Positions 53,606 to 60,477 of a stretch of 64,000 nucleotides of DNA are shown in pieces. This DNA is from a virus, in the IMG/VR virus record IMGVR_UViG_3300032287_002972, positions 1-64,000 of that record; one strand, written 5' to 3'. Under the pieces are notes generated by a model. That model did no database searches and had not been told where the DNA came from. It worked only from the letters and a program-made list of their open reading frames with translations. Every line of letters begins with the position of its first letter. Position 1 is the first letter of the stretch. Both the position numbers and the translations under genes were made by a program.

Positions 53606-53974
53606 TTACTCTAAAGAAATTATTCTTTCTTTATTTTTTTCTTTAGATTTTGGTAAAATTATCTCTAAAATACCATTTTTTACATTCGCACTGATATCTT
53701 CTTCCGATATATCATTTGGAATGAAATAAGATTTTTTAAATGAACTAATAAATGAGAGTTTTTCATCTTCATTATTTTCTTTGTCATATTTAATTGTTAT
53801 CAAATCATCTTTTATCGAAATAGATAAATCTTCTTTTGATAACCCAGGTACTGATAAATAAACTAAGTACCTATCTTCCTTCTCATTAAATTTTACAGAG
53901 TTATTTTTTGAGAAGTCTTTGTCAAAAAGTGAATCTAAGACATCTTTCAACGGATCTTTGTAAATTGTTACCAT
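53606..53974 (-). CDS. Small heat-shock protein (Hsp20/alpha-crystallin)
   Basis: The 122-residue protein has the alpha-crystallin core: YLVYLSVPGLSKEDLSISIKDDLITIKYD, then FKKSYFIPNDISEEDISANVKNGILEIILPK, with the family's A.....GIL.I.LPK signature. A short C-terminal I-x-I-like tail (RIISLE) is present. The N-terminus is short, so oligomers may be small. It is divergent from the ClpC-like gene across an intergenic region of 140 bases. The pair suggests phage-directed protein quality control. Confidence 0.9.
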   Translation of the reverse strand: MVTIYKDPLKDVLDSLFDKDFSKNNSVKFNEKEDRYLVYLSVPGLSKEDLSISIKDDLITIKYDKENNEDEKLSFISSFKKSYFIPNDISEEDISANVKNGILEIILPKSKEKNKERIISLE

Positions 53975-58885: not shown

Positions 58886-59309
58886 GGGGATGACATAGAA
58901 TCGATTGGTGTTAATATTGTGAGTAGGCACGTAGTCGGATTTCATCTACGACTTTAATAAATGGTGGAAAAAATTAGACGGAGACGTTTACAAAAACATG
59001 GAAATTGTTGGTTTACTAGCAACTTCTAACGTGGAAGTAGCCTAAGGGTAAAAACACGAAACGGGTCGGTGGACATATAACCTTGGAACAGAAGTCCCTA
59101 CGGTGTGATACAACCATAAAAGTGTCAAAGGTCTAGTTCAGAGAACTACCTATAAACCCATGAAAATGGTAAAAGTGAACTCGACACAGTTTTCGGTAAC
59201 AATGTCAAAATAGGAACCAAATATTTGTCAGTTGTGAATTAATTGAATAAACGTGTAGTCTATTTATGGTATTGCAAACAAGACCTGGTGGCAGTGACCA
59301 GCATCTCCA
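58886..59309 (+). ncRNA. ssrA: tmRNA (transfer-messenger RNA)
   Basis: tmRNA rescues stalled ribosomes by acting as tRNA and then as mRNA for a degradation tag. The 5' end GGGGATG (58886-58892) pairs with CATCTCC (59302-59308) as a seven-pair acceptor stem with one G-U. A T arm CTGGT/ACCAG (59285-59301) with a seven-base loop abuts it. TTGGTGTTAATATTGTGAG (5' side) pairs imperfectly with CTATTTATGGTATTGCAA (3' side) as the long H2 helix. AAACGTGTAG before the 3' arm resembles the conserved 3' part of bacterial tmRNAs. The likely tag frame runs from GGA 58980 to TAA 59045 (GDVYKNMEIV ... SNVEVA). CCA is not encoded, and the T loop (GGCAGTG) lacks TTCGAAT. A terminator follows at once. Confidence 0.82.
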
Positions 59310-59316
59310 CTTAAAC

Positions 59317-59349
59317 AAAAAAACCCACCAATTGGTGGGTTTTTTTTTT
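59317..59349 (+). terminator. Terminator of the tmRNA
   Basis: A perfect palindrome CCCACCAATTGGTGGG flanked by A7 and T9 follows the tmRNA by seven bases. It is a very strong intrinsic terminator. Confidence 0.93.
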
Positions 59350-59350
59350 G

Positions 59351-59574
59351 TAAAGATTTTCTTAAATGAATGTTTTAAATTAATAATTTAGATTTTTTAA
59401 TAAATATATCATAATAATATATTTTTTTTTTATAAATGTAAACACTATAAACAAACAAAGGAGTCAAATTGACTCCTTTGTTGAGATTTTGATACCTCCT
59501 TTCGTTTTTAGTTTATTTATTATCATATAGCGACCAACCATATGAGTCTATTAATAAATATCACAAAATTTATT
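59351..59574. other. Non-coding stretch with a 12-bp hairpin
   Basis: No gene is visible in these 224 AT-rich bases. One hairpin is clear: CAAAGGAGTCAA/TTGACTCCTTTG at 59456-59480. It may end leftward transcription after 59575, although it lacks a strong T tract in that direction. A CCTCCTTTCG segment follows (about 59504-59513). Otherwise I see nothing. Confidence 0.6.
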
Positions 59575-60477
59575 TTAGGTATACATTTTAGCTAATGTTT
59601 TTAAAACAGGTAATGATAACATACCCATAAACCCACCCATACCATTAGTTTTTGTTTCTTCTTTATTTGGTGTTAAATCACTCTCATTTGAATTTTGTGC
59701 GATAAATTCACTAAGTTTAGGATTATTAGATATTTCTTCTCTAAAATTTTCGTCTTTTTCTAATCTATCTTCAAAAGAGGTGAAATTTGGTAAACCAAAC
59801 ATTTGTAAAACATTATTTGCCATTATGAATCTTCTAAAAGAATCTCTTCTATCTTGTCTTGATCTAAATTTTAACCACCATTTTTGAATAAAATTACTTG
59901 GTTCCATTCCTCTTTTCGCAATATATTTTGATAATCTTTCACCTTGATAAAATCCTTTAAGACCTGTGCTAAATTTACCTCCTGTTGTTGTACTTTTTAA
60001 TCCTGTTTTAATTGCTGCTAATGGTTTTACTTTTGATAATACATTAGATAAACTACTAAACGCCTCTTTTATTTTACTTCCCCACGATGTATTCACTTTA
60101 CTTATTTGATTAATAGTTTTATTAACTGCTGGATTATTAGTTTTTTCCACAACTTTTTCTAAAGTATTTGTTAATTTTGGGTTTTTAGTTAATGCGTTTA
60201 CTAAATTATCACTATTTTTTAATGATAATTTACTCACACCTTGTAATGATTTAATAAATGGTTTAACTAAAATATCACCTACTGTTGGTATTAAAGCAAT
60301 CAACATTAATGCTGCATATAGTTTTTCACCTTTTTTTAAATAATATAAAATCAATGCAATATCCGCTAGTTCACCTATTACAGGTATGAAACCTGCCGCC
60401 ATTAATATATTTTCTAAAGTAAATAATGCTTCGTTAAGTAACTGTTTTTCCTCTAATAATTGTTGTTTTGTTTTCAT
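59575..60477 (-). CDS. Membrane-active virion-type protein (300 residues)
   Basis: The N-terminus (KQQLLEEKQLLNEALFTLENI) carries [LI]xE motifs. A hydrophobic block follows (about 25-80: ILMAAGFIPVIGELADIALILYYLKKGEKLYAALMLIALIPTVGD). Its GxIPxxGExxD...Y...G....A......IPxxGD pattern resembles the membrane-inserting helices that precede toxin domains in polymorphic toxins, and it is also seen in ejection proteins. The remainder is charged and helical with a DRRDSFRRFI segment. It could help DNA entry into the host; the role is inferred. Confidence 0.5.
   Translation of the reverse strand: MKTKQQLLEEKQLLNEALFTLENILMAAGFIPVIGELADIALILYYLKKGEKLYAALMLIALIPTVGDILVKPFIKSLQGVSKLSLKNSDNLVNALTKNPKLTNTLEKVVEKTNNPAVNKTINQISKVNTSWGSKIKEAFSSLSNVLSKVKPLAAIKTGLKSTTTGGKFSTGLKGFYQGERLSKYIAKRGMEPSNFIQKWWLKFRSRQDRRDSFRRFIMANNVLQMFGLPNFTSFEDRLEKDENFREEISNNPKLSEFIAQNSNESDLTPNKEETKTNGMGGFMGMLSLPVLKTLAKMYT

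Follow-up and report, generated by a model that had tools for sequence, protein, structure and literature searches.

The stretch of DNA analysed here (the window, 64,000 nucleotides) corresponds to positions 1-64000 in a virus record of 167,990 bases. Matches to portal (phrog_213), terminase and DNA polymerase proteins identify the virus as a T4-type tailed phage. The nearest portals from isolates are 36-42% identical and belong to Microcystis and Flavobacterium phages; a DNA search found no isolate relatives, its hits being confined to short T-arm segments of unrelated tmRNAs. The G+C content is 27%, and a Shine-Dalgarno signal occurs in 2 of 53 genes (1.4 expected). Absence of this signal is typical of Bacteroidota phages. 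The host is thus probably a Bacteroidota bacterium, as judged from this trait.

A complete one-piece tmRNA gene occupies positions 58886-59309 of the plus strand, extending 424 nt from G1 to the discriminator A73 (Table 1). Upstream, a reading frame ends 18 bases ahead of the tmRNA start, and the genes for an Hsp20 protein and a ClpC-like unfoldase lie farther away in the same direction.

Table 1. Features of the tmRNA locus and the associated phage genes
Feature	Position	Strand	Basis or remark
Hsp20 small heat-shock protein, adjoins ClpC gene	53606-53974	-	PF00011, 4e-18; possible associate
ClpC-like AAA+ unfoldase, 668 aa	54115-56121	+	Pfam AAA_2 1.8e-69, ClpB_D2-small, UVR; likely partner
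Acceptor stem, 5' strand GGGGATG	58886-58892	+	Sequence; holds G3 of G3:U70
Reduced D-loop ACATAGAATCGA	58893-58904	+	A18-equivalent 58897, G19-equivalent 58898
H2 helix, 5' strand	58905-58932	+	Covariation
Pseudoknot 1	58933-58969	+	S1 58933-58937/58949-58953; S2 58940-58946/58963-58969
Tag reading frame GDVYKNMEIVGLLATSNVEVA + TAA	58980-59045	+	40 tmRNAs have homologous tags; excess of synonymous changes
H2 helix, 3' strand	59251-59281	+	Covariation; includes invariant ACGTGTAGTC block
T arm	59285-59301	+	5 pairs; loop GGCAGTG 59290-59296 = G54 G55 C56 A57 G58
Acceptor stem, 3' strand CATCTCC, + A73 (59309)	59302-59309	+	7 pairs with 58886-58892
Intrinsic terminator hairpin CCCACC-AATT-GGTGGG + T run	59317-59349	+	Sequence; minimum-energy fold

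Architecture and conservation of the tmRNA gene

The RF00023 covariance model aligns end to end with 58886-59312 (model positions 1-374, 40.0 bits; E=2.5e-14 for a 1-kb stretch and E=1.6e-12 for the whole window, the latter computed against 4227 families). Taken with the T4-type portal and terminase in the genome, this match bears out the first-pass annotation, which had proposed a phage-encoded tmRNA and named a covariance-model search as a check on it, yet the score falls below the RF00023 gathering score of 47 bits. Neither ARAGORN nor an RF00023 search at the gathering level detected the gene, probably because of its T loop. The RF00023 family search of the gene's own record also missed it at first; negative results by that route are therefore weak. 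The description of phage tmRNAs as rare holds in a relative sense only, as about 2.3% of 18,146 phage genomes carry one (PMC9004378).

Most of the architecture had been recognised from the sequence beforehand: the seven-pair acceptor stem and the five-pair T arm joined directly to it are both present, and CCA is indeed not encoded. The 3' end reads ACT, the bases after A73 being CT, and CCA would need post-transcriptional addition. H2 is, as described, a helix with many G-U pairs, but its length had been put at about 20 pairs; we count about 26 in total, with small internal loops between. Pseudoknot 1, which is absent from the first-pass annotation, is supported here by covariation. The immediate intrinsic terminator is also there, a hairpin and T run directly following the gene. 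A consensus terminator scan did not include this hairpin among its listed sites. Downstream of the tmRNA, a strong 13-pair hairpin (59454-59482) resembles a terminator in the minus-strand orientation.

Stem covariation was analysed in an alignment (A1) that comprises 15 relatives. In H2 and the T stem, 95.7% of pairs are standard, versus 33-50% paired when the partners are slid; 19 of the 31 pairs show changes on both sides, and the covariation score is 0.481 (0.170 shuffled, at most 0.10 for slid partners). The T stem by itself is 100% paired in the relatives, with 4 of its 5 pairs changed on both sides, and pseudoknot 1 has 90.8% of cells paired and a score of 0.277 versus 0.153 shuffled. 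Thus, compensatory changes in the relatives keep H2, the T arm and pseudoknot 1 and do not break their pairings; the proposal of a tmRNA withstood the refuting checks that the first-pass annotation had set for it. G3:U70 and A73, the keys to alanylation in E. coli (PMC3968760), are present in all 15 aligned relatives. The folding energy of the tmRNA stretch corresponds to z = -3.1.

The tag reading frame encodes 21 residues, GDVYKNMEIVGLLATSNVEVA (58980-59042, then TAA), and is preceded by TTAGAC at 58974-58979. Tags of 20-22 residues occur in 40 tmRNAs of our set, and nearly all fit the pattern G[NED]..[ML]...GL......V.[VA]A, in which the inner GL and the C-terminal Ala are conserved. None of these 40 tags has the ALAA ending, a degron type that is common but not defining for tmRNAs; the window tag ends in VEVA, and the norm in its clade is VxVA or VAA. 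A distant one-piece gene, L300, has a tag ending in EYALAA. The earlier view of the tag as atypical therefore holds relative to the general consensus but not within the phage clade: judging from these tags, the VxVA/VAA ending is a trait of the clade and not a peculiarity of the window gene. Between similar tags, 137 of 241 single-base codon changes are synonymous and 104 are not, where 28% synonymous changes would be expected; the pairs counted are non-independent. This excess points to purifying selection on the tag as a peptide. At the level of sequence, these comparisons show 58886-59309 to be a structurally intact, protein-coding and conserved tmRNA.

A coupled exchange at the D/T elbow

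In tRNA numbering, the elbow of the window tmRNA consists of A18 and G19 in the D-loop and G54, G55, C56, A57 and G58 in the T loop. GGCAGTG thus stands in place of the canonical T loop UUCRANN, and in the D-loop UAG replaces UGG, matching the T-loop change. Together they form the alpha-type elbow, that is, a D-loop UAG with a T loop GGC[AG]G. The Rfam alpha_tmRNA consensus has the T loop GGCgGUA with AAuAGGAUCGAC; the beta and standard consensus sequences have UUCGAUU/UUCGAAU with the D-loop UGG. Because alphaproteobacterial tmRNAs also do without UUCRANN, the canonical T loop is a common feature of tmRNAs and not a defining one. The T loop had been flagged as unusual, which is correct relative to the general consensus; it is, however, of the known alpha_tmRNA type and is accompanied by the matching D-loop. 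A comparative study of 2005 described GG in the T loop of the Reclinomonas mitochondrial tmRNA and a U-to-G change in that of Caulobacter (PMC1168896). A sequencing or assembly error is rejected by the recurrence of the same loop in L123, L201, L066, L245 and the permuted genes. Nor is the loop restricted to phages, as the Rfam alpha consensus and the MAG contigs L207 and L208 also have it.

Viral tmRNAs were gathered in three ways, so that neither loop was conditioned on its counterpart: through the block ATAAACGTGTAGTC, through the T loop, and through the D-loop, where position 18 could be A or G. Among 69 distinct tRNA-like domains, 46 have G18/U55/U54/A58, 17 have A18/G55/G54/G58 and 6 have A18/G55/U54/A58; no other combination at these four positions was found. 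The association of positions 18 and 55 (G18/U55 in 46, A18/G55 in 23) gives a Fisher value of 8e-19 with relatedness ignored, and positions 54 and 58 are exclusively U/A or G/G, never mixed. Ambiguous domains, inspected by eye, obey the same 18/55 rule. One-piece genes have about 390 bases between the two loops; in permuted genes, the T arm is upstream of the D-loop.

On a tree of 60 one-piece genes, made from an alignment that left out the D-loop and T-arm regions, the T-loop state changes 7 times, at least 3 of the changes being forced by well supported branches. The D-loop state switches together with it in 60 of 60 genes; a sign test on the supported independent pairs alone (3 pairs) gives p=0.25, so that support for the covariation is limited once phylogeny is corrected for. 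The weight of the rule comes from its freedom from exceptions in one-piece genes, permuted genes and two candidate-phyla MAG genes. These comparisons show that the predicted elbow contacts are exchanged as a set, to A18-G55 and G54-G58, with G19-C56 kept. A matched exchange of this kind is to be expected if a working elbow is under selection. In E. coli tmRNA, TrmA places m5U and TruB probably pseudouridine in the T loop (PMC3968760); G54 and G55 would make both modifications impossible in the window RNA. In the literature consulted, we found no description of a coupled D/T switch or of an alpha-type elbow in one-piece tmRNAs, and nothing on A18-G55 or G54-G58 pairs.

Several other tmRNA genes came to light in the course of this comparison. 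L207 and L208:2206-2593 (-) are one-piece tmRNAs on Gracilibacteria/Patescibacteria MAG contigs with the elbow A18/G55/G54/G58; the L208 contig also holds what, from a reading of its translation, we take to be a malic-enzyme gene. The T arms of L248, L011, L235 and L265 have a sixth stem pair or loops of 6-9 nt, and the 18/55 rule is apparently kept in them. The window gene runs 5' to 3' and does not have the two-piece (permuted) order, in which the 3' acceptor piece lies upstream. In L165-L198 (e.g. L187:465-787 and L170:366-678), phage tmRNAs of the circularly permuted form have the T loop GGCAG[TA]G. For several of them, the highest score comes from the betaproteobacterial model, which has the consensus UUCGAUU, so that the alpha-type elbow also appears on beta-like permuted phage genes. 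Finally, L125:6686-6900 (-) contains a group I intron (RF00028, 68.7 bits) inside the tmRNA T loop, and L124 is likewise intron-bearing; L125 is a relative in which the tmRNA adjoins the same gene as in the window.

Clp, SmpB and the gene neighbourhood

The first-pass annotation had raised the possibility of a phage-encoded ClpC-like unfoldase, and such a gene was found 2.8 kb upstream of the tmRNA. Its product has two AAA+ domains, a UVR motif and an LGF loop, and scores below every cut-off of the curated NCBIfam Clp models. The N-terminal repeat domain is absent, the Walker A motif lying at residue ~70-83 in 57 of 57 ClpC homologues, and the [VLI]GF loop is kept in 53 of the 57. This loop is of the ClpP-docking type; ClpB/ClpC-type rings also work as chaperones without ClpP. 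In two cases (G029:C1:75453-77455 and L282), the ClpC gene is split into two frames near residue 402-419, by a frameshift, an insertion or an assembly error.

Among the 22 tmRNA loci with at least 7 kb of upstream sequence, 17 carry a same-strand ClpC homologue in the 7 kb upstream, and none has one downstream. An N-domain-less ClpC-like homologue is encoded by 18 of 18 sampled one-piece-tmRNA phage contigs, a sample in which some members were picked because ClpC had already been seen there; the contigs behind L125, L126, L224 and L264 encode ClpC, though the retrieved loci had shown none. The single permuted-tmRNA contig tested along with them has no ClpC. The reverse search, starting from ClpC, gave a tmRNA in 16 of 26 long contigs that carry ClpC; often 8-24 kb separate the two genes, and tRNA-like matches lie in that interval. 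In two uncultured huge phages with ClpC, no tmRNA was found within 15 kb. A tight ClpC-tmRNA operon is rejected, as only 2 of ~50 ClpC-ascertained contigs have a tmRNA in the 5-7 kb downstream of ClpC. The distance between the two genes ranges over 2-24 kb, and this variability suggests that the link may be the shared ancestry of one phage lineage.

Clustering of the neighbouring genes at 28 loci recovered ClpC at 21, an M20-like peptidase at 23, an uncharacterised protein of ~380 aa at 17, and a UVR-motif protein and Hsp20 at 7 each. The M20-like peptidase (L297, L267 and 67 more loci) is mostly encoded on the opposite strand between ClpC and the tmRNA, and occurs in most loci outside the window's clade. 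The uncharacterised protein (~380-450 aa) often lies immediately 5' of the tmRNA. At L311, L272, L233, L249 and others, a small, McsA-adaptor-like protein with two UVR motifs is encoded just upstream of ClpC.

SmpB is encoded by 4 of the 18 one-piece-tmRNA contigs, and several relatives have an SmpB gene (PF01668, E ~1e-46) close to the tmRNA. Among these are L070 and L328, both of which have in common with the window the gene next to the tmRNA, at 59575-60477. Phage SmpB was seen at 12 loci (L080, L093, L114, L224, L279, L285, L298, L070, L074, L105, L321 and L328), in many of which it adjoins the tmRNA; all readable T loops of tmRNAs accompanied by phage SmpB are of the U55 type. Of 19 contigs, 6 encode a ClpP, all of them among the 18 with one-piece tmRNAs; the protein is closer to the cellular protease than to head-maturation proteases. 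These ClpP proteins (L413-L418, on contigs G038, G032, G015, G021, G041 and G035 of large tmRNA-bearing phages) have the catalytic motifs. One contig of 282 kb (G038) combines tmRNA, SmpB, ClpC and ClpP. In the 168-kb window record, which may be incomplete, ClpC is present and SmpB and ClpP were not detected.

Proposed function and relation to known systems

It is likely, in our judgement, that the locus encodes a working tmRNA with an alternative D/T elbow, which would rescue ribosomes, tag their products and commit the tagged proteins to an at least partly phage-encoded Clp system. Host RNase P and CCA-adding enzyme would mature the RNA, host AlaRS would charge it and host SmpB would bind it. 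It could then rescue ribosomes stalled on broken mRNAs during infection, with the tag (A)GDVYKNMEIVGLLATSNVEVA being added to the stalled products. More speculatively, the phage ClpC-like ring may unfold the tagged proteins, docking via its [VLI]GF loop on ClpP, either that of the host or, in relatives, the phage's own; ribosomes and amino acids might thereby be recycled under the phage's own specificity. The first-pass annotation had suggested that re-tagging may serve to avoid or redirect host proteolysis, possibly with a phage ClpC-like unfoldase; the Clp part of that suggestion is supported by the co-occurrence of tmRNA and Clp genes. With the exchanged elbow, the RNA probably retains the D/T contact needed by SmpB and probably loses U54/U55, the TrmA/TruB targets, along with the stretch of T loop that T-loop introns use.

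Rescue with Clp-directed turnover ranks as the most likely function and rescue alone as the second. Rescue alone would imply that -VEVA/-VxVA is a poor degron, that tagged proteins are spared and that ClpC is an unrelated chaperone, a neighbour by descent. We regard it as unlikely, although the missing ALAA ending, the failure to detect ClpP in the window record, the variable tmRNA-ClpC distance and the Hsp20 gene beside ClpC, which suggests a chaperone role, are all consistent with it. The purifying selection on the tag, its inner GL and its C-terminal Ala exceed what rescue needs, however, and the retention of the ClpP-type loop in ClpC and the presence of ClpP in some relatives also count against it.

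A different question is why the elbow changed. The T loop could have been rewritten mainly to escape group I introns or integrases, the elbow being merely adjusted; the L125 intron sits in exactly this T loop, and there are several U55/G55 switches within the clade. Alphaproteobacteria have the same loop type as their standard, so other causes exist, and G55 loops may admit the intron as well; this account seems somewhat less probable even than rescue alone. It is very improbable that the phage RNA is a decoy that titrates host SmpB or blocks host trans-translation. Mycobacteriophage DS6A has an RNA comprising the tRNA-like domain only, and such molecules inhibit tmRNA (PMC4131195; PMC11915505), which fits a decoy, as does the failure to detect SmpB in the window record; but here the mRNA-like part is complete, the tag frame and pseudoknot are conserved, and relatives encode SmpB beside the tmRNA, which a decoy would not need. 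A decaying remnant with a degenerated T loop, which the sub-cut-off Rfam score and the ARAGORN miss might have suggested, is excluded in practice by covariation, the compensated stems of L123 and L201 (which share the loop), the matching D-loop, and the intact G3:U70 and tag.

Returning to rescue with Clp-directed turnover, a further step can be entertained tentatively, namely that one-piece-tmRNA phages of this clade practise a private VxVA tagging in which phage ClpC with phage or host ClpP prefers phage-tagged over host ALAA-tagged proteins. If so, the phage would decide which stalled products are destroyed, with phage SmpB joining in some cases. The relatives keep the tmRNA together with unfolding and sometimes proteolysis genes, and may thus have their own version of tag-and-destroy.

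The window gene shares with the standard one-piece tmRNA (RF00023) the G3:U70 acceptor, T arm, D-loop, H2, pseudoknot 1, resume site, tag frame and terminator. It differs in its elbow (A18/G55 + G54/G58, the standard being G18/U55 + U54/A58), its 21-residue VEVA-ending tag, its greater length and the lack of an encoded CCA. With the alphaproteobacterial two-piece tmRNA (RF01849) it has in common the T loop GGCRGNN and the D-loop UAG; the alphaproteobacterial gene is split into two pieces and circularly permuted, whereas the window gene is unpermuted and groups, by its body, with the one-piece tmRNAs of phages. The tmRNAs of isolates (mycobacteriophages, Streptomyces phages and the OM43 phage Melnitz, whose tmRNA is two-piece (PMC9004378)) are likewise encoded by large tailed phages, but their annotated tags are of the ALAA type (ANSNVASAYALAA, ANSKFAFALAA) or AADVAADYAAVGA, unlike the VEVA tag. 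Intron-interrupted tmRNAs are represented by the relative L125; the T loop of the window gene is uninterrupted. A 2025 database lists 79 phage tmRNA sequences (PMC11915505).

Phage tmRNAs, the alpha-type T loop and T-loop introns are already known. The combination found here apparently has no precedent in the literature consulted, and the same holds for an elbow that switches repeatedly and in a coupled manner, for tags of the VxVA class and for a gene set of tmRNA and ClpC, with or without SmpB and ClpP. Such genes escape both ARAGORN and the Rfam gathering cut-off, and phage tmRNAs are thus under-counted. The tmRNA elbow, which SmpB has to grip, exists in two interchangeable versions, and within a single phage clade one version has repeatedly given way to the other as a unit. 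This switch is direct evidence for the D/T contacts as well as a natural swap experiment. In large phages, tmRNA and a Clp unfoldase travel together, with SmpB and ClpP in relatives, and phage takeover of bacterial ribosome rescue and proteolysis thereby becomes testable.
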